From contig NC_092467.1 in assembly GCF_047495875.1 (NCBI RefSeq), positions 14,473,566-14,537,565 of the forward strand: a stretch of DNA of 64,000 bases. Direction: 5' to 3'. A program made the translations under genes and the position numbers. The notes under the pieces are model-generated. The model was not told the DNA's origin. It saw nothing but the letters and a program-made list of their open reading frames with translations, and made no database searches. Source of the DNA: Pithys albifrons albifrons. Lineage: Eukaryota; Chordata; Aves; Passeriformes; Thamnophilidae. The number at the start of each line of letters is the position of its first letter. Position 1 is the stretch's first letter. This document shows positions 268-64,000 of this stretch, in pieces.

Positions 268-2588
268 CTGTTGTTTCAAGTGTTTGAAAGCAGATTCCCC
301 ATTCTTTGGGTCATTTAAGGCTTCTTGTAAAGCCTGATGGGACAGTATTTGTTCCTTAAGACGAAGTTCCAAGCCTGCATGGAAATGCAAAACTTTTAGG
401 CACAGCCTTCCAGTTTCCAAGAGTTCCTGGTTTGTGACACACATTACCACAGTGACAGTTTGTTGCACTAACAAAACAGTCTGTTGGGAGCATAAATCCA
501 TCATCATATGTTTGTAGGAGAGCTGTATTGTTATCCGTAGTAATATTGAGTGGGAAACAAAAACTGAAGGGAACAAAAGATCAATGTTTTATCATTCTCT
601 CAATCTAGTTTATTTTTCAAAGTAAAATTCAGCTATTGGAGTTGGTCTGATAATTATGTCAGATGTGTTTAAATCCACATGTCTCATATTTACAGGTATA
701 TAACAACAAAAATAACAATGAAATATTTAATCAATTTAAAACATCCTATTTTTAATATTAAGTAAGCTCACCATTACTTGCTTTTTTCAACTTGATAATT
801 AAGTTCTGCAGCTCTTCAATGGATAGAGAAGATAAAGGAACCTTTTTAAGGAAAAAGAAAGCCACCTATAAATACAAGACCTTTTAATTTTTCTAGTTCT
901 TTACAGTCACGTGATACATTGCAACATGTTACAGAAGGACTGAACTTAAAAACAAGTAATTGTACTCACTTGCTTTTCTGGTGTATCTGCCACATCCTTT
1001 AAACCTGCATTAATACCTTGAACAAAGTAGACCTTTAAAACATAAAAAGAAAATAAATCTGATCCTGTTAATTACTAGGAAGCAAATAGCTACATTTCTT
1101 GACACTTTTTATCATATGTAGCAAGAGATATTCACTACAAAATAAGATTTTCCAAATAATTTTTCTTCCTGTAGTCTGATCCTGAATCCCTGGCACAAAT
1201 GAGTGTTCTGACGCATTTTACAAGACTGAACATGTTCCTAACAGTTAAGCAGTCAAGAGTGAGTCCAGAGACCACTTCAAGATTTCTCAGGTAATAGTGA
1301 AGGTGCAACACTAGTAAGGTAGAGGCAATAAAGAAACCATCTTCTCTTTTCTTGGAATAGCTTTTAAACACAAACCCTGTTCCTTCCCTCAGCACTGGCT
1401 CCAAGTGTCAGCCAAGAAGCAGGCAGTGGGCTGACAATGCAGAGCCTCCTGCCCGTCCTGCTCTGCAGGGACAGCGCTCACCCCGCCTCAAGCCAATGGC
1501 ATTGGGAGGGGCTGTTCACACCCCGGGTATGTTTTTGAGAAAAATGAGTACAGGATTTATTCTTTTTTGTGACTAAGAGAACTGAAAAGTTGTACCAAAC
1601 TACAGAGTAAAGTGACACAGAACATGAGGAGACGTGAAATCCATTTCAGGAAGAACATATTCAGCTTCCACACTGTCTCATCACACTGGTGCCTGCTGGA
1701 AGTGCTGTCCTCCAGCTCCCAAATGCTGTCAGCACAAAGAATTCCCTGCAGAGCTGTAATGTTTAAGATCTTAAATGGGAGAGGAAATTATGAATTCATA
1801 CTGCACTTACGGGCTTTGGCTTCTCTCTTGAATTACATTTTTTTAAATGCTTTTGTAGCTGGTCTTCATAAACGGTGCTAAAATCCAAATGGAAAGAGAA
1901 GTAAGGAATAGCATTTATCATGTGAATCCTGACAAAGAATAGGAAAAGCATTTACATATACTCACTGTTTTGGATCAAGAGGGCACGGAATCCTTTTTCT
2001 GTCATTTTGTTCCTAGTTAGAAAAGTTTTAGACAACACTTCAGCATGCATTCAGGTTCTTGTTTCAAAAAACCTGTTGAGGGGCATCAGTTTCATAAAAC
2101 CTGAATTCAGAGCTAGGTGGGTTTAACCGGAATGGAGAAACTGACAGAATTTAATAACTAACTCGATCCTAAAAGAATAACCCTCTAATGGAAGCGCAGC
2201 GTTGGGCTGACCCGGGTGCCCCCGCCCCACCCCGCGCTGCCAGAGCAGAGCAGGGCCCGCCGCACGCCGGGGCCCCCCGAGCCCGCCCGGAGCGGGGTCC
2301 GCACGCACCTCCTCCTGCCCGTGCTCTCCGCAGAACCGCCTCCCGGGCGCGGGCACCATCCTGCAGAAGCGCCCCTTCCTGCGCACGAAGTGCCCGCACC
2401 GTCGCGGCCCCAGTCCCTGCCCCTGCCCCTGCCCCTGCCCCTGCCCCTGCCCCTGTCCCAGCCCCTGCCCCTGCCCCTGTCCCTGTCCCAGCCCCTGCCC
2501 CTGCCCCTGTCCCAGCCCCTGCCCCTGCCCCTGTCCCTGCCCCTGCCCCTGCCCCTGCCCCTGCCCCTGTCCCTGTCCCTGTCCCTGC

Positions 2589-2630
<42 letters not shown>

Positions 2631-2719
2631 CCCTGCCCCTGCCCCTGCCCCTGCCCCTGTCCCTGTCCCTGTCCCAGCCCCTCTGACTCCAGCTCGTGCT
2701 CCGGCTGCGGCGCCGCCAT
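268..2719 (-). CDS. TRMT13: tRNA:m4X 2'-O-methyltransferase TRMT13, N-terminal part (partial; continues off the left edge)
   Basis: TRMT13 2'-O-methylates position 4 of certain tRNAs. Six coding exons are visible: 2309-2719, 1966-2012, 1811-1877, 970-1032, 772-841 and 268-374. They join in frame to 255 codons. Residues 1-13 precede a Gly-Gln tract of about 90 residues. A CCCH finger typical of the family follows at residues 108-133 (starts CGHFVRRKGRFC), then a CHHC finger with C147, H153, H163 and C167. The segment ALNDPKNGESAFKHLKQQ near residue 240 matches the vertebrate protein. The SAM-binding catalytic domain is missing and should lie left of position 1; positions 1-267 are intron. I chose the start at 2719, but an in-frame ATG at 2774-2776 would add 19 residues. 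The Gly-Gln tract is absent from the mammalian protein as I remember it. Identification is secure; the start choice is not. Confidence 0.93.
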
Positions 2720-3330
2720 CGCGGCCCCGGCACCCCCCGCGCCAGGCGCGGCCCCGCCCCGCGCGCGGCCGAACATGGCGGCGGAGCGGCTGTTCGGGCG
2801 CGCTGTGCCCGTGCGGGTGCAGGGCCGGGGCTGCGAGGAGCGGTGAGTCGGCCGGGGCTGCGCCGCGTTTGCTGGCGGGCAGGAGCGCTCTGCGGGGTCC
2901 GCGCTCTGGGACTGCCGTGGGCACCCTCCGGGACGGAGGGGAGGGACCGGGTGTAACGGGGCCGGGGGCAGCCGGTGGGGCCGAGCGGATGCTGTGGGTG
3001 TCTCGCCAAGGGAGCGGGGCTGGGGACAGGAGGCCGCGGTGCCCGGGGCTGAGGCGACCCCGGCTCCCGGGCCCCGCGGGACTGTTTGGCGTCTCCCTGG
3101 CGCTGGGGTTTGTTTGAGTCTCCCGGGTTCCGCGGGTCCGTTTCCATGTCCCCTCCTGCAACGTTGCCCGCGGTCGCTCCGCCCGCCCCCCGCGGCCCGG
3201 CAGAGCCGCCCGGACAGCGTTGCGGCCGCCCCGGCCCTGGGTCTGAGCCCCCGGTTCGAGCGGGTGCGTGGCCTGGGTGCCCGGGGAAGCCCAGACATTG
3301 CTCGTGGGACGGTCTGTTCGAAGTGCAGTG
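2180..3330. promoter_or_regulatory. Bidirectional CpG-island promoter of TRMT13 and SASS6
   Basis: This block is strongly GC- and CpG-rich compared with the AT-rich flanks. It contains both first exons. The two start codons are 55 bp apart and divergent (2719 minus, 2775 plus), and GC boxes are present while no TATA box is seen. Each 5' UTR must therefore lie in, or very near, the other gene's first exon. The transcription start sites themselves cannot be read from the sequence. Confidence 0.8.
2411..2687 (-). repeat. Coding hexanucleotide repeat encoding (Gly-Gln)n in TRMT13 exon 1
   Basis: The plus strand reads CCTGCC/CCTGTC over and over. On the coding (minus) strand this is GGGGCAGGGGCAG-type sequence encoding roughly 90 residues of alternating Gly and Gln, with occasional Gly-Leu. 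The coding strand has many closely spaced G-runs, so G-quadruplex formation is plausible. The tract lies about 90-365 bp upstream of the SASS6 start codon, inside the shared promoter region. Its length is probably polymorphic and prone to assembly error. Confidence 0.93.
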
Positions 3331-6300
3331 GATTTCGGCCCTGTAGGTGCTGTCTGGGTCAGACAGCAAGTGCCTGACTTGCCTCTGCGCACGGAAAGGC
3401 TGATGCCTGTGGTGGTGTGAGTGCTATAGCATCTTACTCGGCAAAGAAGTAAATGAAGACAAGCTAGCACTGTTTAAGTGATTATCAGAAGTTTCAGCAA
3501 TCGTTAATAAATTTCAACAGGCTTTTCCAAAGGCTGTAGTTTCTGGACAAAGTTTCAAAACTTCTGAGTTGCTATTTAAAATTTGGTGGATAACAAGCAA
3601 CAGATAAAAAAACCCAGCAGTGACTGAGGAGCTGCAATGATAACTGAAACTTGCATCTTAGTAGTAGTCATCAGTGGGAACTTTCTTAATGTTTCTGCCG
3701 AAATTTTTATTTTTGAAGTGTCATTGATTCCTGTAATGCAGCTGTGAACACATTATTTCAAGAATGTTTTCTTGATTTGTTATTTTTTTGTACACAGGAG
3801 ATTAAATGTTCAAGTGAATATTGAGCTACTGCCAACTTCTAATCCTGTTCATAAAAAGGTTAGTAGCCAAGTCATATCTGTGTTATTCATTAGGTATTAC
3901 CTGAATTACATTTTGTAAAAGGATAAATAGGCAAAGGAAAAACAAAATAGGATTTTAACATTTTCATTTGACTTTATTTTATTTGACCTTATTGGTGTTA
4001 CTGGCACCTGAGTAACTGAAACATGTCCCTGTGCTATGGTCACATTTGAGTTATGTTAGAAGGGCTGTCAGGTTACTACTTACTTTGTTACCTCTGCCAG
4101 GGAATATTATATTCTTGACACTGGTGTGAGCCTAACAAGGCTGGGAGCAGGAGGCTGGGCCTGATGTGCCAGGTGTTTTGCATAACCCCATCCTGGTAAT
4201 ACTGTATGCTTTCAGAGAAGGCAGTTTTTCCCAAACACTGTGCAGACCTCCAGTGAACAAATGAGTGTCAGTTTAAAAGCCAGGCAGCAATAGTGCTGCA
4301 GTTTTCCTATGGGCTTCCTTGACTTCAGCTGTATCCATTCTGTATTCGCTTTATGGGCTCTGTATTCAAGCGTATAACCTTTTGAGATGGTGGTTTCATA
4401 AACGTTTAGGAGTGGTATGCTCTGAAAAGCCTCCAGCTATGGGAATGATGTGTCTGTGACCATTACAATGGACTGCTAGTGTTGCACTCCATTTCATGAT
4501 GGGGCAAAAATAGCAAATAGTTTTCTTTCTGGAAAATGCTGAATACACATTGAAATTTGAAATCTTTGCTGCTCAAAGTTGAAGGTTTTTACTTGTTTTA
4601 TTTATGTGAAAAACAATTTTTCTTGTTTTCCCAGTGTAATATTTGAAGCTCTGTTTAATGTTTTACACATTCTGAATTAGTTGCCACAACTCTATGTTAC
4701 TTTTGGTTAAACAGTAAAAACATTCACTACTGTTTGCAATATTGGTTTAAAGTACTTATGGGTGGTTTATGGTATTTTAAATCATATTTAAATCTACATC
4801 TTTTCAGGACTTAGCTGTTCGATTGACTGATGATACTGATCCTTTTTTCCTTTATACCCTTGTCATATCTGAGGAAGATTTTCAAAGGTAAGGGAAATAA
4901 TATTTTCTCTGTGAAACATTTCTAAATGCAAAAAAGAACAAGGGAATATTTTTAGTGTAGAATGGTCTGTGTTAGAATTTAGATTTTTACGTTTTTCACT
5001 TGTGGAGTCTTGTCAGTATTTTGGTGCTATTGCTCTCTTTGACCAGTCAGTGAAACAGCCAAGTGCAGGAAAGTGTTAGCTCAGGGCTGTACAGGTGAAT
5101 GTTGGGATCCTGATGTAAAGTTCCCTGCATAGATAACAGTGTCACAGTTCATCTGGATGTATCTTCTGTTTATCATAACTTCTTAGGGACTGTTCTGTGT
5201 GTGGGAACAAGTTCAGGAGATAATTGCAAAGGAAAGGCTGTTTACATGGACATGGATTCACAGACCTTGCACACGAATTGTACTGTTAGGTTTCATTTAC
5301 TTGCTCAGAATATGATCATCAAATTTGGGCACCAGGCATGAACAGTTCGAATTTCTGCTTTCTTTGGGTTTGTTTGTGTGGTTCTGTTTTTGGATTTGGG
5401 GGTTTGTTTGTTTGTTTTTTTGGGGGACAAATGCTTTGGTGTGGTCAGTATGTAGTTCAAAAGACAAAAGTGAAACAGTGTTTGCAAAGCAGATGTGCAG
5501 AAGCGTTTTGTTAGACAGAGGCACAGCCTTGTACATCCACAGTTGGAGGTTTCTGTCTCTGAGTTTCCTGCGTCTGTGGCGCAGGGGCCTGGACAGACAG
5601 TCAAGTGGGCAGGGGGTCTTCCTCATTGTCCTTTGCCTCTCCCGTGTGCCCTGTCCAGTAACCTCTCTGCTCTGTGCTCTGAGGAAGGTGACTGCTCAAA
5701 GGGGCATTTATGTCATGCCAGAATAACTTATGTTTTTGTCTTAGTGCAGCCCACTTGCAAGAACTCTAGAAAACAAAATATTTTCTAGGGATTATATCCA
5801 CAATGTTGTCCCATGTCTTGTATTTGAAAATAATATATCACAAAATTTAATGACATGATCAGAATATGTTATTTCTACTAGTGTAAACAAAATACTTCAT
5901 AGGAAATAAATTTCACTTATTCACTATGTCGTTAATATTTTTTTAAAATCTTTTATATAGTTTGAAATCCCAGCAAGGTCTCTTGGTAGACTTCTCTGCT
6001 TTCCCACAAAAATTTATAGATCTGCTTCAGCAATGCATTCAGGAACAGAACAAAGATACCCCAAGGTAGGTCATAAACACATGCCACGTTATACTCTGGG
6101 TGTCCATGTTGAGTTCTTAAAATACTTATCAGTCCCTCAGACTGAGAAGAATTGGTAGAACAAGGAAAATTTGAGTCAGGGTATGTAACAGACTAAATCT
6201 AAGTCTCGGGAGGACTGAGCAGTGGAGTTGGTGCCTAGTAACAGTCTCTGCATCTGCACTGAGTCTGGCAAGCTTCACAAGCTGGCAGATGTGCAGGGGT

Positions 6301-28232: not shown

Positions 28233-28420
28233 TTTACCATCGCCCCCCGGGGGCGGCACCCGCGGCCCCTCCCGGTCCCTCCGGGCCTCGGCTCCCTCCG
28301 TCCCGCCGCCGCTCACGCGCCCGCCGCCATCTTGCGCTGCCCCCGCCGCGCGCGCAGCCCGCCCCGCGCATCACGCGATCGCGCCATTGGCCGCGCGCCG
28401 CTCACGTGCGCGCCGGGAAG

Positions 28421-28723
28421 GGCGGGGCGGGGCCGGGGGAGGGCGGGGCCGGGGCCGGGGGAGGGCGGGGCGGGGCCGGGCGGGGCGGGGCCGGGGGAGG
28501 GCGGGGCCGGGGCCGGGGGAGGGCGGGGCCGGGGCCGGGGGAGGGCGGGGCCGGGGCCGGGGGAGGGCGGGGCCGGGGCCGGGGGAGGGCGGGGCCGGGG
28601 CCGGGGGAGGGCGGGGCCGGGGCCGGGGGAGGGCGGGGCCGGGGGAGGGCGGGGCCGGGGCCGGGGGAGGGCGGGGCCGGGGCCGGGCGGGGCGGGGCCG
28701 GGGGAGGGCGGGGCCGGGGCCGG
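28421..28723. repeat. GC-box minisatellite upstream of MFSD14A
   Basis: About 300 bp of tandem units close to GGGCGGGGCCGGGGCCGG plus a short GGGA spacer, roughly 22 bp long with shorter variants. Each unit contains a GGGCGGGG box of the kind bound by Sp1/KLF proteins. The plus strand is a near-continuous series of G-runs. The repeat keeps several reading frames open by chance; none is a gene. Confidence 0.93.
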
Positions 28724-34724: not shown

Positions 34725-42426
<7,702 letters not shown>

Positions 42427-54099: not shown

Positions 54100-54198
54100 T
54101 CATATAGACCATTTCGATGTAGCAGCAGACAGCACAAAGGCACTCAAAACACTGAATAACATCAGGAGTTGGGAAGTGGAGTGTTTCCCAGCAGAGCT
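54100..54198 (-). CDS. Terminal exon of the micro-exon gene: hydrophobic C-terminal tail
   Basis: A strong acceptor (CTCTCTTTTTTTTTATAG) leads into 33 codons including TGA, in the same phase as the micro-exons. The peptide begins SSAGKHSTSQ and continues LLMLFSVLSAFVLSAA before the end TSKWSI. Small residues, then a polar spacer, then about 16 hydrophobic residues near the C-terminus resemble a GPI-attachment signal. A short transmembrane anchor is the alternative. The final six polar or mixed residues are slightly unusual for a GPI signal. Confidence 0.72.
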   Translation of the reverse strand, partial: SSAGKHSTSQLLMLFSVLSAFVLSAATSKWSI

Positions 54199-57100
54199 CT
54201 ATAAAAAAAAAGAGAGAAATTTGATAAACCTGTTTCAAAATAATTGTATTTATCACTACAATAAAAGAACAGAAAGTTTCAGAGAAATCTTTTCCTATTA
54301 GCCCCTTCTATTACATAGACACTTCTGATGTTAAAAGGATCATGTGTCACATCCATAGTGCCTGTAAATTAACAGGTGTTCAGTTTTCAGGTGATAGGAT
54401 CAAATGCATAAAGCACCTGTGTGGCCCCACTTCACTTTTATTGATTCTATTCCCATTTATTATGTTGCACATGTGTTCTCATTTATTCAGATTCAGGAAA
54501 TTTGACAGATACCTCACAGTATAAACAACACTTTTAGTTTTCTATGATATGCATAGGGGGAAACCAGTAGAAACTTCAAAGAGAAAAAGTACTTACCACT
54601 TGACTGCCTCCAGAGGAAGGTGACTGCTGAAAACAAACAAACAAACAAATCTACAAGTGTTCCCACCCAGTGGTTTTGAACACAGTTTTTGCCAGTGATC
54701 AACAAGATCTTAATAGCTGAACCTACACCATGGTTTTAAGTTGTTCAAGAGGAAAATTGCTTTGCATTGATAAAGCAAATAGTTTTAGTGACATACTCTT
54801 GTTACATCTGAAAAATTCAGTGAAAATTCATGGAAGGGCAAAAGTTTTTATTTCTCTCAGTCTGTTATCATATTTGATACAGAGTTTTCCATCCCTATAT
54901 TTGAAATAAGATGTTAAAAAAATGATGAGTACTGATAAAAAGAGAAGTACAAAACCAGGTATCCTGCCAGTGAAAATCTCAAGAATCTACCTTATTAAAA
55001 AAAAAAGTGAAGGAATAACTGAGCACAACCTATAAAATCTACACAGAGAACAGGTATTTACAAAACAAAGAACAGAAAAATGTAACAGATTCTGAAATTG
55101 TTTTCACAGGCTAAGGCCCTATTTTCCACATGGCTTCTTTAAATATGCTCTAATACAAATGGAACCAATACAGAATGTTCTCTTCAGACCAAATCATCCC
55201 CAAATTGCTCTACCTACCACCCAGGTTCTTTATTTACTAAGCAAAGAAGACAAAAATGCTATGATGAAAGTATTCTTACCCCTTTTCCAGAATAAGTGCT
55301 TCCTGAGCCAGAGCCACCCTGTAAAATAATTATGAACCATTTAATTTTGTAGTATGAGATTCTCAGTGAACAGTGTTCAGAGAGCACACACCAGTCTTGA
55401 AAATTCCCTGGATATTGGTAGTTTCGATATTGACTTTGATTTGCCCATTTTCATTACACTTTCCCCCCTCTTTTAATTGGGTGGTCTCAAGTTAGTACAG
55501 CTATGTCCTCTTTATTCCATGAGCAGTTTCAGAGGAATATGTCAAAGCAATGTGTCATTGACTGAACTACAGAGTTCGAAACTGAAACAGTTACCCTGAT
55601 ATATAAATACATTATTGCTAATTTCCATTTGAATGATCCAAACATATTCCTATGTGTAAGTAACAGAGTAACTTTGCTATAGGAGGAATAAATGCTGCCT
55701 CATCTTGGGGGTTCAAGTTTGAACAAAATATTCCATTTTTTTGGGTAATTCTTCTCAGACATTTACCATTATAACACAATTTTAAATTTTACACTCATTA
55801 TTGTACCTATTTAAAAAACCATTATCCACATTTCTAACTTGGTTGTGGAATACTGAAAGAAGAATATCCTTACTGGCTTTCCTTGTTGTTTGCCTCCCGA
55901 GGAAGATGAACCCTGAAAAAAGATACCTGTTTTTGACTCTACGTCTATTTGCACTTAAATATTCTTACTCTCTGTAATAAAGGACCAGAGGAAAATGAAC
56001 ACTGTGTTGTGTCCAGTCATCCAAAAATCCCAGGGAAAACCTTATCTGAAATGCAAATATTTAACAACTTTTTGTTACAAGTATTCTTTCAAATGATTTA
56101 TTAGGGATTATCCTACAGAGTTCTCAAGAAGAAAGAAGTGTTTTGTAGTTGTGATGTGTTTAATATAAGGAATGGAAAAATGATAAGGTCTAGTAAAACT
56201 TTAATTCAGCTGGTGCCAGTCTGTGGTTACATTGGGGGAAAAAAGGACACCAACAACAAAAAATGCCAACATTAAAGTCCTTCACTCTACAGCTCTTACT
56301 TGAAGAAAGATCTAATAGTAAAGGTAACTGAGAAAAAAAGTGGATACAGAAAAATTAAATACTTGAAAGTCAATTCTCAGTTTTCTGAGAAAGTGACTCC
56401 TCATTTGAGTGGCGTTGCCAACAGGAAAAGTTACAAGCACTGAAGAAATGCCATCAAATGCAGCACACAAAATGTCTCATGTTTATGATTCATTAGAAAA
56501 TGTAACATTTATGCCCACTTTTTAATAACAGGTAGATCTTCTTTTCCATAAGGTAAAACATTTTGTGTGCTTATTTGTATCTCCTGCCATTGAGTGACAA
56601 GAGCAAGGTCCAAATTACATAGTAAAACCGGTAGTCTCAAATGGAGAAGTTGAACATATGAATAATTAAATGGCAGCTACTATTTCCATTGAAAATAAAA
56701 AGTATTTTCTTCAAAGCAAGTCAGAAATACTTCAGACAAATGCACATAAAATTAGTGAAAAGATGAAACCTGAGGACAAAGTGTATGATTATTATGAATT
56801 TAAACAGAAATAATTGTTTAGAAGTTCCTTAAACAAACAAAACCAAATTAGAAATAAACCCCTGTGATCTCATTCTGTGATTACTGGAAGTTCAGTTACA
56901 TAGTAAAATGCTGTGTCAAAACAATGGAACTGTGTGAAAATAAATACTGTGTTTGCACTTGTTGAGATTATCCCAGATAAGGAAATCATGTGACACTCTC
57001 TGCATATTAAAGTAATTCTGGGAAAACTGTCTGGTCCATAACTAGATACAGGTTTTTAACAGATGTATAAGAAAAAAGAAAGGTAAACTGGAATTTTTTG

Positions 57101-60100
57101 GACTTACTGGTTTACCATGTTGTCTGCCTCCAGAAGGATAAGAGCCCTGTAATGAAAACCTTCTGTGACTGTCTTGATGCAATTTGTTCAGCACTTGGGA
57201 CAAACTTATTTGGATGTTGTTGGAACAAAACCAGTAAATGTGGTACCTAAAACTTACACTCTGTACTGCACACTGAAGCAGTGGCAATTTGAACTAAAGC
57301 ACTGTTATGAAATACAGTCTGGTGATTATAGTGCATTTAAAGGAATGTTTTTCACAGAGCAGTAATTCATAGTAACCAAATCTTTTATTCACCTTGCTGA
57401 AATGACTTCAATTAGTATTACCTCAGCTATTTAGGATTGATAAAATGGCCAAATTAGTGTATCTTCCAGCATTAACTGATCTGATCCAGAAAGTACATTA
57501 GGAAAGAGTTAGGAGTGATGAGATGGAAAGAGAATATACTCACCTGCCCACCATACTGGCTGCTTCCTGAGGGAAAATTGTCCTATTAAAAAGAGTCAGG
57601 GGAAATTAACTAATTAACAGCAGTTACTTTGTTTTGTTTTGTTTTGTTTTTTTTCTGTGTGGAATGAAACATCACGGAAGGCCTTTTAACTGAAGATCTC
57701 AGTAACAATCTGGAAAGTATATTAATTTAAACAGATGAAGTGAAAGACTTTTGACAATGCCTCTAATTTCCTTAACAGCTGAAAGTAGTAAATTGGGCAA
57801 AGTCACAAAACACCTGCTAAGACTGTTCCTTTCCACAGATAAATGGATCTAAACTGTCTCACATATGGATTTCAAGAGAAAAAAAGTCCATTTGTGATTG
57901 TCTGCTACATCATATGTGTTCAGAGAGCATTGTGTGTATTATTGTAAAAGCATCCTTATTATTCCAAATAAGTAATTCGGGAAAAAATTGATTTGTAGCT
58001 GCTAAAAGTCCTCTCCATGCTACAAGAGATTTTCTTTGTAATAGAGTGATACTGAACTCCAGTGCTTGCCAGTGGAGTAAAAAGAAATTATTTTTTTTAG
58101 TCTAGCAGAGTGAAACATTGCAAACACAATAATACTAATGAAAAGCAAGGTCCATTCTTTTATACAGCCTTCCATTACATCTGTCAGCTATTTGCACTAG
58201 TAGGATTTCTGAATCAGTGACAAACTAGTAAGTCTAGAGAAGGCACTCAGTGAGCTGATTACAAATCAGAGAGACTTGAATTGGAGCTGAACATGAGAAA
58301 AATAGTATTATTGGGTGCAACACACCAGAATTTACATTTTCAAAGCAATATCTATCAGTCTATTTTGTGCCAAATTTTTCCAAACATATAATCTAAACAT
58401 GTAATTAAAAAAAAAAGATAATTTCAATATAATTGAAAAATAGCATAGAAAATATATTTTGAACTGGTGTAATAGCAATGTGAAACAAACATAAAAATAG
58501 TTTATTAAAATTATCCCTTTGGGATAAGAGGCATTCTGAGGTAAAACAACTAGAATTATGATCTATGGAATTTCTTTAAATTGAAGTTTGTTCATGCTAC
58601 TCCATTTCAGTTACTGAGAGATGGTCCCTGTTTTCAAATATTTATTAAGAGTAAAATGACTCTGAAAAACTGACTGTCAGTACACACTGCATCATACTTT
58701 TCATTTAATAAGTAGCAAGTAGAAAGGTGATCTTGGAAACAAAGAAAAGTTGCTTGCCTGTCCACCATACTGATTGCTTCCAGAATATGATGAACTCCAT
58801 AAAAAGAATGTGAAATTTTTATAGATAATTTTTTCAATAGCATCTGGCATCAAAAATTCCTGGACACTGATTAATTGGAAGAACTTTACACAGTTACCAA
58901 TGCAGTAGCAAATGATTAATTATCCATACATCATATTAGTGGTTTATGCAGTAAAATCAACCTTGTGAATGATTCTTCAGTAATTTTTCAAGGTAAGAAA
59001 GCTTCTATAACTACAAAGTAAAATCTTGGTTCTATTTCATGGAAAGATACAGCTGAAATGTCAAGAGTGATTCAGTCAGAGCCTCATGCACTCTCTGGAA
59101 TTATTGTCCCTATCTCTGTGACTAAACCGAGCTCAATATTTAATGGCTTCTGGGCAAATATGGCAACTGAGCCACGTTTATTCCTGAGGAATATTTCCTG
59201 GGAAACTAATCAGTGTAAATGTTAAAGACAAATTGCCTACCTGTCCACCCTGGTAGTTGGTTCCTCCGAAAGAGCCCTGGATTCAACAGAAATAGAAATG
59301 TTTACTCTGTATTAAATTCAATGTCACATAGAGGAAAAACAAGGGAAAGTATTGACCTATTGCAATGATCAAGTCCTTGACAGTGTTTACTACTATACTT
59401 TTGATTAAACAAGTAAAGGATTTAGTTTTGATTGATCCTGATTTATATGTCAAATAATATATGTTTATATACGTATATATAATGTGTATGTAAGTGATAA
59501 TTATTATATAATAATATAATTCCTGTTTATATAAATTCTAATGTATGGGTTGTTTTCAACACTTGGGATTCTTAGAAAAATGGAAATAGCTTTAACTTTT
59601 TAAATGCATTGCTGTGCTGGAAGCATCTGGGGCCATGATTTCAGATCTAAGTTTTACTAGTTCAGTCATACTGTTACTAACCGTCATCCAAAAAGATATT
59701 TGAGAAACAGATTCTTAGAAAAGTCCCAGGCCTCTCTCACAAACTGAGTAGTTGGTTTTGAATACAATACTACAATTGTACAGTTGTACACTTAATATTT
59801 TGGTCTTTAGCAGATTCAAAATTGCTCATTTTAGTATAATGTGAAAAAAGTTTTCATCATACATAGAATTTCACAGATAGAATTATTTCAAGATTTGTAG
59901 CTCCTTGGGAATTTTCCAGTATATGTACATACTATGAGAAATTATATAAAGACAAAGAATACTTACTGGACCTCCACCGGGGCACACACACCCACCCTGT
60001 ACAAAACACAACCAAACTTACTTTCCTGGATCTATGATAGCAACAGGCCCGTGAGTTCACAAATCAAACTTGCATTCTGCTAACTGTAAGCAAATGGACT

Positions 60101-63100
60101 ATAAAATCCTGCTCATAGACTCACTAAGCTTCAGCTAAAAAGTAGTTTCTTTCTCTCTCTACTGCCCTTTTCAGGATAGTTGTGCACTTACTGATCAGTT
60201 TTATAAATATAATTTTCTAATTTCTCATTTAAATATTACACTAAAAACCTACTCACTAAAATGAGGAGTAAAAAATTCTGAATAGTAATACAGATTTTAT
60301 TTTTTCCCCTGAGGAAACTAGACCATCTAGAATTTCCTCAGGGAAGTGGTCACAGGACCAAGCCTGTCTGAGTTCAAGAAGTGTTTGGAAACATGATGTG
60401 ACTCAGGGTGTCCTGCGCAGAGACAGGAGTTGGACTGATTAATTCTGATGGGTCCCTTCCAACTCCACATATTGTATGAGTCTATGAATACATACAGTAC
60501 TCTTTCATGCTACAGATGTTACAGAAAACACTAAAGATGACTTCCAGTGGAGGCTTATGAGGCAATTTCTACTCTGATAAAACTAATTAAGAGGTGGCCA
60601 AGGGTTCACTATTCAGTGTTTCACTTTCCACATCCAATCTGGATGAAATGTGTGAAGGGAAACAGTTCTTGTGCAGGAAAGCCACACAAAACAAGTTGTG
60701 AGTGCCTGGCACTAGCAGAACTGAACAGTGCCAAGAAAGAAAAGCTTACCTGTCCACCAGACTGCCTGACTCCTGAAGAAAAGCCCTGGAAGAAATGAGA
60801 AACTAATTATCTCTGTGGTATTAAGTAACATTCTCACTTTTTCTCTGCAGCCCTCAGTTTTTCAAATTGCTCCTGTTTAAACAAAGCAACAAAAAATTAT
60901 CTTCTTGAACCATGTCCTGTTAAAGAAGCATTTCCTTGCAGTCACACAGGGCCCTGTATTATTTGCTCCTACCATGATCTGACATACCATACTTTGCAAT
61001 CCTCACTCAGCCTGCCTTAAAGCTATTTTTTTTAGCATGTTCCTTTTTTGCAAAAAATACAGGTCTGTTTTCCTAATGTCCTGTGTGCCTGAACTGCAGA
61101 TACTGTGAAAGTAGAAGTTTTACCTGTCCACTGTACTGGCTGCTTCCTGAAGAAGCCTAAAGAAATGAGAAAGCATTTATATTTGTTGCACATTATTTAA
61201 CTTACAACCAGTCACAGCAAAACACACTTTTATTTGTCTTCCATGAATTTAAGTGTCACAGAAACCTGAGCACTTACTTTATAACCCTACTGGAATCCAC
61301 TGGCCTTTACAGTGGCTGCTATGCAAACAGAACAATGAAGTTTGAATCAGAGTCAGCTTCAAGCAGGTGTGAGCAGTGCTGCTGCCCTGCATTGTGTGCT
61401 CACAGCAGCCTTCTATGTTTTATTTATGTAAAGTTAGTGGGAGGACACGGCAGAAAGTCATATATTGATCTTTTCTGCCTAAACACTGTTTTGCCATAAG
61501 CTACTCATTTACAAAAAAATGTTCTGTTTTTCATAAAATAAAAGGAAGGTGAAAAATGGAAAAAACAACCCAGAAATAGAAAAACAATTCTCACCTGTCC
61601 TCCATAATGGCTGCCCCCTGCGAAAGAAGGACCCTGAAGCAAAAGTGCCAATTATTTCTCAAATCAAAAAGCCTCTTTAAGAGCTTTTTAAAGAAAGACT
61701 ATTTTCTTTCTCTGTTGCACAATGAATAATTACAGGAAGATAAACACTCAACCTATTGCTTTATGTGTTCTATGCAAATTAGGGAGGTCCTTAACATTTG
61801 TATCTTCCATAATATTGATCATGAGCTATTCAGATATATACGTAGTTTTGTGAGACTATACTTGGACTGAAAATCTCTTTCTCCTCTAATCCCCTGTCCA
61901 AAACATCTGACAATAAATGTTTTCAGAGGCTAAGGATGTTTGTTTGGATGCCACTCCGTACTAGAGGCTATACCACTAGGCAGTGCTAGGAATCCTATCC
62001 ATCATCTCTCATTTCACAAGGGCATGGAACACCTCTTAGCAACTCGTGGCCTTCTGTCCTGTTCCTCTTGTGAGACATACTGCTCTCCCACATCAACTCT
62101 GATACGGCATTTTGCCAAAGGAAGTGAGGCAGAGGAGTGCACTCTGCTTCCAGCCACTCCTTACTGCTAGAGCCAAGAAACCATGATAGCAGCTGGGCAG
62201 GTTGGAGGGTAGAACAAGGCCAGAACTAAATTTACTGTGTTACAACAGAAGCACCAGATCTACACAGTTTTTGTATTCTTTCAGATACATCTTTAGATAC
62301 CTGATCATCTATTATCAGATTGACAGAATTTACTCAAAATATTTTTTCAGTCAATATAAAAGTATGAAGTTTTGGAACTGTGTGTTAGAATAAGAACTAC
62401 ACAGAAAGAGATTCTCACCTGTCCTCCATACTGGCTGCCTCCTGAAGAAGGTGAACCCTGAACAAAAAAAGAATTAAGTTATCTGTATCTCTGTCATTCT
62501 ACTCGCCTGAACAATGCTCCATATGAAGGAGAAGTGCCCGATTTCTTTCACTGCAGAACTGTGAGTGGACTGAGCCAAATTGTGCAAAAATGGGTGACTC
62601 ATCTGCATTTACCACGATGCATCAGAAGCTGCATCTTAAAATTGCTTCTATGGCTTTCTATAACATATATTTATAACTACTCTATACCTAGCAACAAATT
62701 AATTAAAACATGGGGGAAAGAACCCCCAAACAAACCCCAATCTACTTAAAATGTTCTTTTACACAGAGCACTACCAAATCTCTTTCATAAAGTAGTAAAC
62801 ATTACAAGCAAAGAATTCTCACCTGTGCACCATATTGGCTGCCTGCTGAGGAAGGTGAACCCTGGAAATAAACAAAAGAGGAAAATGAAAGTTTTTACAC
62901 CTATTTCATAGACTTAGAGAATCATTTCATAAGGCTTTAAATTTTTTTGTAAGCTTCATGAGGTACTTATTTCTTTCAGAAGTACATAACCTTTACTCCT
63001 GCAAATTTCAGGAGTCAACTGAGTCAACCACGTATTTCATGTTCTAGTTTTTCTGAGTCTTAAATAATGATCTTCATCTGAACTTGTTTTGTTTAATCAC

Positions 63101-64000
63101 TGTGACACCAGAGCACTGCAGAGAAAGATTTACTGAGAAGATTTTAGATTAAATTAAAGCTAAGATAGACAGCCAGGTAGACAGTGAATAAACTACAACT
63201 CTGCATGTCAAAGCTACAAGAACGGGCACTATTAATGCTTACTTGTCCACCATATTGGCTGCCTCCATAAGAAGATGGCCCCTGGAAAAAGTATTGAAAA
63301 TTAGTTATTTCTGAATATCTAATTGGTGGAGCCAAGCAGCAAAGAGATCTATATTTTGTTATTTTACTGTTTGTGTGTAATTATCCCAGAATAAACTCTG
63401 TGTTTTTTTCTTCTTTGAATTTGCAATATTACTACAGAGGATTGACCAGTGTCAATTTTCTTGAAATATTAAGATCTTAATACAAGTCAAATACTTGTAA
63501 AAATATATATATCATATAAAATATTAAAAGTAAAAGCTTACATGTCCTCCATACTGGCTCGCTCCAGAGGAATATGAACCCTGTAAAGAATACCAAATGA
63601 GTGAATTACCTGCAGTAGGATTTCCTTAAAATAAAACATGACTCTCCCAGGACAACAGGAGCAAGAACATAAGGTAAGAGTGAAGACAGGTGAGCAGGAC
63701 TTTCATTATACTTTAATAATGAGAGTTCAAGCCTTACAAGGTAAGTTGGAGAAATGCCTGGGTTCCTAAGCAAGAGTGAAAGGCAAAAACATACTCTTGT
63801 TTGTGTGGCCAGTTGGGAAGGTTAAACTGGAATTATTTCCAGTTCTTTCTCTGCTCATTTTTGGGGAATGGCATTGCTTTATCTGGAAAGCTGAGCCCTG
63901 GGCCAAAGCTAGCAGTAAAATACTGGCCCAACAGGCCTCTGAAAACCAACTTAGCAAATTTACTGAAAACACATACAACAAGAAGTCTCTTTAAAGGGGG
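54100..64000 (-). CDS. Unrecognised gene of tandem phase-0 micro-exons encoding a Gly/Ser/Gln/Tyr-rich repeat protein (3' part; 5' end off the right edge)
   Basis: I do not recognise this gene. Fifteen short exons between 63580 and 54597, plus a terminal exon ending at 54100, form one minus-strand reading frame of about 215 residues so far. Micro-exon lengths are 39 (ten exons), 36 (two), 33 (one) and 30 nt (two). All are multiples of three and split between codons, so any exon can be skipped without changing frame. The consensus is G-S-x-S-S-G-G-S-Q-Y-G-G-Q. Fourteen exons have an AG acceptor and a GT donor; the exon at 58758 does not. Introns are about 260-1200 bp. Repeats nearer the 3' end lose Tyr and gain Lys (GKP, GKP, GKG). 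No micro-exon is seen from 63581 to 64000, so the start and any signal peptide lie to the right. The hydrophobic C-terminus suggests a membrane-attached or secreted protein; this is inference. The gene sits between SLC35A3 and, by synteny, AGL. Confidence 0.8.
54597..54626 (-). CDS. Micro-exon (30 nt), last before the terminal exon
   Basis: Encodes QSPSSGGSQV. The acceptor is GTTTTCAG after a T-rich tract and the donor is GTAAGT. It matches the first nine positions of the 39-nt consensus, with Gln replacing the first Gly, and lacks the YGGQ end. If the AG three bases further in were used, Q1 would be dropped. Confidence 0.8.
55280..55318 (-). CDS. Micro-exon (39 nt)
   Basis: Encodes GGSGSGSTYSGKG, with acceptor TTTTACAG and a GTAAG donor. 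It is a divergent copy with Lys at position 12. Confidence 0.8.
55874..55912 (-). CDS. Micro-exon (39 nt)
   Basis: Encodes GSSSSGGKQQGKP, with acceptor TTTTTTCAG and donor GTAAGG. The Tyr is replaced by Gln and the end is GKP. Confidence 0.82.
57108..57146 (-). CDS. Micro-exon (39 nt)
   Basis: Encodes GSYPSGGRQHGKP, with acceptor CATTACAG and donor GTAAGT. It is most like the 55874 copy, with which it shares the basic GKP end. Confidence 0.82.
57544..57582 (-). CDS. Micro-exon (39 nt)
   Basis: Encodes DNFPSGSSQYGGQ, with acceptor TTTAATAG and donor GTGAGT. It is the only copy starting with an acidic residue. Confidence 0.85.
58758..58796 (-). pseudogene. Decaying micro-exon (39 nt) with non-canonical splice sites
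   Basis: The 39 nt still read SSSYSGSNQYGGQ in full, but the acceptor is GG (TTTTTATGG) where the other copies have AG, and the donor is GCAAGC. Using the next AG, two bases into the exon, would shift the frame. Skipping it keeps the frame. It is best read as a recently lost exon, though a GC donor alone can be functional. Confidence 0.7.
59241..59276 (-). CDS. Micro-exon (36 nt)
   Basis: Encodes GSFGGTNYQGGQ, with acceptor AATCCAG and donor GTAGGC. It is one codon shorter than the consensus and keeps the Tyr and the GGQ end. Confidence 0.8.
59967..59996 (-). CDS. Micro-exon (30 nt) with two cysteines
   Basis: Encodes GGCVCPGGGP, with acceptor TTTTGTACAG and donor GTAAGT. It is the only cysteine-containing copy in the window and lacks Ser, Gln and Tyr. 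Good splice sites and correct phase support it, but its peptide does not follow the consensus. Confidence 0.62.
60338..60487 (+). mobile_element. CR1 LINE 3' end in an intron of the micro-exon gene
   Basis: CTCAGGGAAGTGGTCACAGG, then AGCCTGTCTGAGTTCAAGAA, GGGTCCCTTCCAACTCCACA and a terminal ATTGTATGAGTCTATGA follow the CR1 3' consensus. It is antisense to the micro-exon gene. Confidence 0.9.
60750..60785 (-). CDS. Micro-exon (36 nt)
   Basis: Encodes GFSSGVRQSGGQ, with acceptor CTTCCAG and donor GTAAGC. Tyr is replaced by Ser while the GGQ end is kept. Confidence 0.8.
61124..61156 (-). CDS. Micro-exon (33 nt)
   Basis: Encodes ASSGSSQYSGQ, with acceptor TTTCTTTAG and the weaker donor GTAAAA. 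It is two codons shorter at the N-terminal side than the consensus. Confidence 0.8.
61595..61633 (-). CDS. Micro-exon (39 nt)
   Basis: Encodes GPSFAGGSHYGGQ, with acceptor GCTTCAG and donor GTGAGA. The intron bases just after the donor (GTGAGAATTG) resemble those of the next two copies upstream, a trace of tandem duplication. Confidence 0.85.
62419..62457 (-). CDS. Micro-exon (39 nt), consensus copy
   Basis: Encodes GSPSSGGSQYGGQ exactly, with acceptor TTTTGTTCAG and donor GTGAGA. It is used here as the reference for the repeat. Confidence 0.88.
62823..62861 (-). CDS. Micro-exon (39 nt)
   Basis: Encodes GSPSSAGSQYGAQ, with acceptor ATTTCCAG and donor GTGAGA. The exon and the donor-side intron bases (GTGAGAATTCTTTG) are very close to those of the 62419 copy, suggesting a recent duplication. 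Confidence 0.87.
63243..63281 (-). CDS. Micro-exon (39 nt)
   Basis: Encodes GPSSYGGSQYGGQ, with acceptor CTTTTTCCAG and donor GTAAGC. It carries two Gly-flanked tyrosines. Confidence 0.87.
63542..63580 (-). CDS. Micro-exon (39 nt), most 5' copy in the window
   Basis: Encodes GSYSSGASQYGGH, with acceptor TCTTTACAG and donor GTAAGC. It must be preceded by at least one further exon beyond position 64000, because no start codon or signal peptide is joined to it here. Confidence 0.87.

Follow-up and report, generated by a model that had tools for sequence, protein, structure and literature searches.

In the micro-exon genes (MEGs) of schistosomes, most of the coding sequence lies in very small symmetric exons. 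According to the available part of one account, alternative splicing of these genes yields a pool of similar proteins, and the genes themselves appear to be limited to platyhelminths (PMC4350168). Here we describe a gene of like architecture in a bird, the antbird Pithys albifrons albifrons (genome 1.14 Gb, 53 contigs). The gene begins with a Reeler domain, continues as an array of 67 small exons rich in Ser, Gly, Gln and Tyr codons, and sits between AGL and SLC35A3. We regard it as confirmed that a 64,000-nt stretch of contig C10 (NC_092467.1; C10:14473566-14537565), which we call the window, includes the 3' end portion of a real gene, and as probable (about 85%) that this is a sauropsid Reeler-domain gene of the kind set out below. 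A second described system with which the gene can be compared is FRRS1 (ferric-chelate reductase 1, SDR2), a Reeler-DOMON-cytochrome b561 protein.

Gene model and tests against chance

A sequence-only reading of the window had proposed a gene of 15 short minus-strand exons, all multiples of three nucleotides (3n), in phase 0 and sharing one peptide pattern. Between 63580 and 54597 of the minus strand there are indeed 14 intact blocks of 30-39 nt, all 3n, open in phase 0 and flanked by AG and GT, and these stand as proposed; a terminal coding exon lies beyond them. The fifteenth is dead in this species. Local alignments of exon against exon, with 200 nt of flank, concentrate their similarity on the exons and splice sites. 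Visual inspection also suggested a 35-nt AG/GT block near 60.85k, which was discarded as out of frame.

The same reading had advised extending the window to the right to reach the start of the gene. In the next 72 kb the small Ser/Gly/Gln/Tyr exons run on to 95.8 kb (in extended window coordinates, to which 14473565 is added to obtain the C10 position) and are preceded on the minus strand by four ordinary exons with a start ATG, encoding a signal peptide (assigned by inspection and hydropathy), followed by a Reeler domain. The window had shown 14 of the 67 small exons but neither the Reeler domain nor the link to FRRS1. When spliced, the four exons match Pfam PF02014 with 108.1 bits (cut-off 21; E=6.4e-31) over positions 1-131 of 131, and in the full-length model the domain scores 103.5 bits, again above the curated cut-off. 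A profile of 17 homologues also matches the F-spondin Reeler structures 3coo, 2zot and 2zou (E 5e-6 to 9e-6), and the single Reeler sequence as query gave no match among solved structures. An AG precedes the ATG of the first exon, which points to a probable 5' untranslated exon beyond it; none was found.

The gene model comprises 72 coding exons over 47,552 bp, with introns of 103-2,321 nt (median 450) and 1,058 codons plus the stop in a single open frame that crosses all 72. The proposal of a gene with serial symmetric small exons is supported. The 67 small exons, 18-48 nt long, are all 3n, in phase 0 and flanked by AG and GT; each adds 6-16 residues, and together they make up 2,544 of the 3,177 nt of the coding region (stop included). 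The earlier term 'micro-exon' fits them loosely; most exceed the usual micro-exon size (2 are at most 27 nt, 9 at most 30, 22 at most 36 and all at most 48). Ser accounts for 26% of the 848 residues of the array, Gly for 24%, Gln for 11% and Tyr for 7%, these four making up 69%; the array includes 23 [GS]Y[GS] motifs and 14 Cys, several of them in CxC-type exons. Gly starts 43 of the 67 small exons and Gln ends 48, a pattern that would be favoured by the splice consensus, AG/GG at the acceptor and CAG/GT at the donor (the slash marks the exon border).

A first model, built without orthologues, contained 58 small exons; in the second, the borders of 57 of these are unchanged and one exon is shifted by a codon. 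The second, orthologue-guided model proposed 70 and is partly circular, orthologue similarity having been used in choosing its exons; three of these (15, 15 and 24 nt) had no convincing counterpart and were dropped, leaving 67.

Several comparisons argue that the array is not a chance assembly of splice-like sites. The exon finder, trained on the array, scores splice sites and residue composition (threshold 10); it imposes an open frame and 3n length, which are hence not independent evidence. It returned 50 exons on the array strand versus 0 on five control strands (216.7 kb in total), and none in any of 20 sequences from a first-order simulation. When trained on the upstream exons alone, it found 13 exons in the window, where the final model has 14; when trained on the window exons alone, it found 35 upstream, while the opposite strand gave none. 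With splice sites alone, ignoring frame and composition, 65 of 88 candidates on the array strand were 3n, compared with 26 of 57 from the five controls (Fisher P=0.0008; P=7e-8 relative to the control rate). Since the control 3n rate of 46% is itself above one third, the value of P=9e-15 obtained against one third overstates the excess.

Homologues, duplicated blocks and isoform models

The joined peptide of the window exons, which the sequence-only reading had suggested as a query for bird and reptile proteomes, found nothing: used alone, it had no match at E<=1 among 5.8 billion proteins. The upstream Reeler part does find bird and reptile homologues. The Reeler part of our full-length model, used as query, gave 47 rows, and a tortoise homologue (65% identity over 81% of the Reeler query) gave 22, three of them shared, making 66 proteins in total. 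Among their sources are crows, a jay, house sparrow, tree finch, swan, duck, ostrich, potoo, cuckoo, an antbird and a swallow, and, outside birds, the saltwater crocodile, several turtles, lizards and a python. A 320-aa frog protein at 40% identity (P0066) lacks the array and may be FRRS1. No mammal was among the rows, a weak test, as the searches need shared five-residue words and limited lengths.

Reeler domain and array occur in single proteins of crows, jay, sparrow, swan, duck, ostrich, cuckoo, crocodile, turtles and squamates. Premature stops and random exon phase in related species, named beforehand as grounds for giving up the gene, were thus not what relatives showed, proteins spanning the array in many sauropsids. 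The same models bear on whether the locus holds several neighbouring genes, with the Reeler gene upstream being distinct from at least one array gene. Some exon groups are set apart by introns as long as 2.3 kb, which leaves room for this, as would further signal-peptide or terminal exons within the array, for which no systematic search was made, but models of crows, jay, swan, duck, ostrich and cuckoo unite Reeler, array and terminal exon within one protein, and we consider the division into several genes unlikely. Behind the Reeler part, three turtle and four squamate models continue for ~280-390 residues versus ~730-880 in five bird models, a comparison in which the squamate models are possibly incomplete and the duck value was corrected for a longer N-terminus.

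These proteins carry the source names hornerin-like, loricrin-like, filaggrin-2-like, spidroin-2-like, sericin 1-like, dentin sialophosphoprotein-like, cysteine proteinase 4-like, putative ferric-chelate reductase 1 homolog and uncharacterized. The names, and a similar Gly/Ser/Gln-rich composition, would fit an epidermal protein of the S100-fused type or of the cornified envelope (hornerin, filaggrin, loricrin). In the S100-fused family, however, the repeats lie in one large exon, and here they are spread over 67 small exons of a gene with 72 coding exons between AGL and SLC35A3. In addition, Pfam (E<=0.01) gives only Reeler in the full model and six homologues, with no S100 or EF-hand domain. 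We therefore reject a hornerin or loricrin identity and hold an epidermal protein of either type to be extremely improbable. A gene of ~72 exons in birds, turtles, a crocodile and squamates has been filed under at least eight unrelated database names, and its recognition as one Reeler gene opens its expression, isoforms and evolution to study.

Within the part of the open-access literature that was covered, no paper was recognised as describing this gene; the available part of PMC2827412 deals with spondin-1 and not with this gene. The available part of PMC8273767 lists 36 'hornerin-like' transcript variants that were down 3.4- to 4.1-fold in the wooden-breast pectoral muscle of 7-week chickens. 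Judging by the number of variants, this 'hornerin-like' gene could be the chicken copy, an identity as yet unconfirmed; if true, it would place the gene in a muscle or connective-tissue context.

The sequence-only reading had also held that repeat number can change by exon duplication, and the array bears marks of this. Blocks of several exons have been duplicated together with their introns, one of 1,037 bp at 98.2% identity, one of 876 bp at 96.2% and others at 79-85%. When the 1,037-bp block was searched as DNA against the whole genome, the matches were the block itself and at least two copies, in the same array. In the two older, non-overlapping block pairs, differences affect 4 of 101 exon sites versus 91 of 671 intron sites (Fisher P=0.005); in a young pair the counts are 0/162 and 10/695 (P=0.22), and the four non-overlapping pairs pooled give 7/405 and 105/2254 (P=0.0045). 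The youngest pair points the other way, its exons having changed more (3/142 versus 4/888 in introns, P=0.06), and this counts against our reading of the gene. One overlapping comparison (3/65 exon, 62/467 intron) was excluded from these tests. Between similar exons of equal length, pN/pS is 0.52 (85 pairs). A four-exon block occurs twice here and twice in one crow model; its protein copies are identical within each species and differ at 7 of 54 residues between them, and the copies were therefore made or homogenised separately.

Could the locus be a decaying gene in this species, or a non-coding array of splice-like sites? One exon has evidently decayed, having lost its acceptor and carrying a GC donor (Table 1). 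It has a counterpart in six of seven bird protein models (two crows, jay, duck, ostrich and cuckoo), the swan isoform being the one without it, and the antbird model P0039 joins the exons on either side directly, which suggests that it is probably skipped in this species. The other 67 small exons nevertheless keep AG/GT borders and one open frame with intact start and stop (the exons were chosen as open), the old block copies differ less in exons than in introns, and the nearest homologue by identity, from the antbird Willisornis vidua, is 98% identical over 69% of the Reeler query. Decay or a non-coding array is accordingly very improbable.

The claim that splicing can vary the repeat without loss of frame agrees with database isoform models. 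For Corvus kubaryi, 28 isoform models are listed, numbered up to X50, and protein clusters have 79 members (hooded crow representative) and 80 members (mallard representative). We cut the crow protein by eye into 65 units at borders transferred from the exons of this genome and from related models. All 28 isoforms are ordered lists of whole units and differ by whole in-frame exon units; 22 units vary between isoforms, and two units from other species' models occur in none. Unit assignment is partly ambiguous where neighbouring units are identical or similar. It weighs on the other side that both are predictions, the gene from genome sequence and the isoforms as database models.

Locus, neighbours and feature coordinates

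Upstream of the array gene, matches to the AGL C-terminal domain (PF06202) lie at C10:14608184-14615887 on the minus strand; downstream and within the window is SLC35A3 (Nuc_sug_transp matches). Beyond AGL, at ~C10:14651865 on the plus strand, is a further Reeler gene, which we take to be FRRS1-like, a label that leans on the expected gene order. Three introns interrupt its Reeler domain at the positions and in the phases (1, 0, 2) found in the array gene, and the two domains are identical at 50 of 142 residues (35%). One exon further downstream matches DOMON weakly (17.6 bits, below the 32.7 cut-off), and two other pieces scanned gave no domain match. The shared intron positions and phases suggest an old tandem duplication, and the simplest account is that the array gene is most likely an old tandem duplicate of FRRS1. 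Against this stands the basis of the FRRS1 label: a Reeler match, a DOMON match below the cut-off and the expected gene order. For comparison, a Reeler exon on contig C5, presumably F-spondin-like, holds in one piece a stretch that is split in two in both the array gene and the FRRS1-like gene.

The first coding exon of SLC35A3 (window ~42444 and below, minus strand) opens in phase 0, reading CAG/AAA GAA AAA AGT CAA GAA ATG. In four models, antbird P0039, swallow P0041, duck P0047 and loggerhead P0057, exons of the array gene are joined to SLC35A3, and the source name of P0047 is 'UDP-N-acetylglucosamine transporter isoform X18'. Such read-through splicing may be real or may be a shared annotation artefact.

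Table 1. Exons and a candidate polyadenylation signal of the array gene, in 5' to 3' order (window coordinates; those of the four upstream exons are extended)
Feature	Position	Strand	Length	Encoded peptide	Remarks
Upstream exon 1	101651-101456	-			end phase 1
Upstream exon 2	99284-99148	-			end phase 0
Upstream exon 3	98855-98764	-			end phase 2
Upstream exon 4	97692-97584	-			end phase 0
Small exon	63542..63580	-	39 nt	GSYSSGASQYGGH	AG/GT, phase 0; jay unit DSYSSGASQYGGH
Small exon	63243..63281	-	39 nt	GPSSYGGSQYGGQ	AG/GT, phase 0
Small exon	62823..62861	-	39 nt	GSPSSAGSQYGAQ	AG/GT, phase 0; unit of antbird model P0039 identical
Small exon	62419..62457	-	39 nt	GSPSSGGSQYGGQ	AG/GT, phase 0; crow unit identical
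Small exon	61595..61633	-	39 nt	GPSFAGGSHYGGQ	AG/GT, phase 0
Small exon	61124..61156	-	33 nt	ASSGSSQYSGQ	AG/GT, phase 0; crow counterpart absent in 11/28 isoforms
Small exon	60750..60785	-	36 nt	GFSSGVRQSGGQ	AG/GT, phase 0; crow unit identical
Small exon, Cys subtype	59967..59996	-	30 nt	GGCVCPGGGP	AG/GT, phase 0; crow counterpart absent in 8/28 isoforms
Small exon	59241..59276	-	36 nt	GSFGGTNYQGGQ	AG/GT, phase 0; crow counterpart absent in 7/28 isoforms
Decayed exon (fifteenth of the sequence-only reading)	58758..58796	-			acceptor TG instead of AG, donor GC
Small exon	57544..57582	-	39 nt	DNFPSGSSQYGGQ	AG/GT, phase 0; unit of P0039 identical
Small exon	57108..57146	-	39 nt	GSYPSGGRQHGKP	AG/GT, phase 0; cuckoo unit identical
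Small exon	55874..55912	-	39 nt	GSSSSGGKQQGKP	AG/GT, phase 0
Small exon	55280..55318	-	39 nt	GGSGSGSTYSGKG	AG/GT, phase 0
Small exon	54597..54626	-	30 nt	QSPSSGGSQV	AG/GT, phase 0
Terminal coding exon	54100..54198	-	99 nt	SSAGKHSTSQLLMLFSVLSAFVLSAATSKWSI	stop TGA; hydrophobic C-terminus
Candidate polyadenylation signal AATAAA	53724..53729	-			~370 nt past terminal exon; read directly

Three repeats lie elsewhere in the window. At 2407-2682 a 46-copy GCCCCT array lies inside an open reading frame with a TRM13 zinc finger (2123-3358, minus strand) and yields a long Gly-Gln repeat. At 36527-36898 there is a minisatellite of ~34 bp units with a higher-order period of 101 bp, and at 28415-28723 a G-rich minisatellite (22-bp unit, 15 copies) in a GC-rich stretch near the first exon of a presumed MFSD14A-like gene.

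The protein, its anchoring and its comparison with known systems

In 10 of 11 bird and turtle models, 20-29 of the 32 residues of the terminal exon are identical to those of this species (tortoise, 20/32), the eleventh, from a softshell turtle, being offset by one residue. The tail consists of SSAGKHST, then LLMLFSVLSAFVLSA (mean hydropathy 2.41 over 15), then TSKWSI, and a hydrophobic tail is present in 44 of the 66 homologous proteins. It probably anchors the protein in birds and turtles. We prefer a glycosylphosphatidylinositol (GPI) anchor to a transmembrane segment because the hydrophobic stretch is short (~16 residues) and is preceded by small residues, with the qualification that six residues, including a Lys, come after it.

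On our preferred reading the protein is probably secreted and its Reeler head held off the cell by a disordered stalk of ~850 residues, with the hydrophobic C-terminal exon as the anchor in birds and turtles. Since all introns after the Reeler part are in phase 0, the stalk is free to vary: exon skipping would lengthen, shorten or retune it in the individual, and exon copying or loss would alter it over evolution. Its Tyr and Gln content would be in keeping with a surface coat that is cohesive or can be cross-linked.

Several observations weigh against this reading. The tail is found in 0 of 11 squamate models and not in one crocodile model; it is also missing in the four models fused to SLC35A3, in three further models from birds and two from turtles, and in the frog protein, so that anchoring is not general or the tail-less models are incomplete. 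The last residues are conserved (KWSI/KWFI) beyond the need of a cleaved GPI signal. In addition, disorder, secretion and cross-linking are inferred from composition.

It is also possible, though we would advance it only with reserve, that the protein is secreted in soluble form as a polymer of matrix or adhesive type, resembling silk, resilin or elastin and cross-linked through Tyr or Gln, whose hydrophobic end is removed or unimportant. The high Ser, Gly, Gln and Tyr content would fit such a polymer, as would the tail-less squamate and crocodile models, and repeats such as GYRPQGGSSYGQ recall elastomer repeats. The tail of birds and turtles is, however, about as conserved as the Reeler domain, judging by the tortoise values given above, and 11 Lys among 848 residues are few for transglutaminase cross-links within the chain.

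Among vertebrate systems, caseins and other SCPP genes likewise encode secreted disordered proteins in serial small phase-0 exons, but they occupy another locus, lack a Reeler domain and differ in composition from the array gene. Elastin has many symmetric, alternatively spliced cassette exons with low-complexity repeats; its exon borders split codons (phase 1) and its exons are hydrophobic or Lys-rich, whereas the array gene is in phase 0 and rich in Ser, Gly, Gln and Tyr. The [G/S]Y[G/S]Q low-complexity domains of the FUS/EWS type use the residue alphabet of the array, but FUS and EWS are nuclear RNA-binding proteins, and the array protein begins with a signal peptide and a Reeler domain. 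Hornerin, loricrin, filaggrin and spidroin resemble the array protein in composition and have none of the tested domains in common with it.

The comparison with FRRS1 is closer at the Reeler part, where intron positions and phases (1, 0, 2) are held in common. In place of DOMON and cytochrome b561, however, the array gene has 67 small exons and a hydrophobic C-terminal exon, and neither domain was found by Pfam (E<=0.01) in the full model or in the six homologues scanned. The array gene is therefore a Reeler protein and not FRRS1 in the full sense. It offers a natural experiment in how a vertebrate splices 67 consecutive tiny exons and in how a low-complexity protein grows by exon copying.

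With the MEGs of schistosomes the array gene shares the plan of its coding sequence, and VAL-6, as described in the available part of PMC4350168, similarly joins a MEG-like part to a folded domain. We do not count it as a member of the described MEG families, no sequence comparison with MEG proteins having been made: it is the gene of a bird, with sauropsid homologues and with exons mostly of 36-42 nt. We tentatively suggest that it may instead be a vertebrate counterpart of the MEGs: a cell-surface Reeler stalk diversified by combinatorial exon skipping, which would give each tissue or animal a pool of coat proteins, and whose exon blocks would have been duplicated and homogenised independently in each bird lineage.

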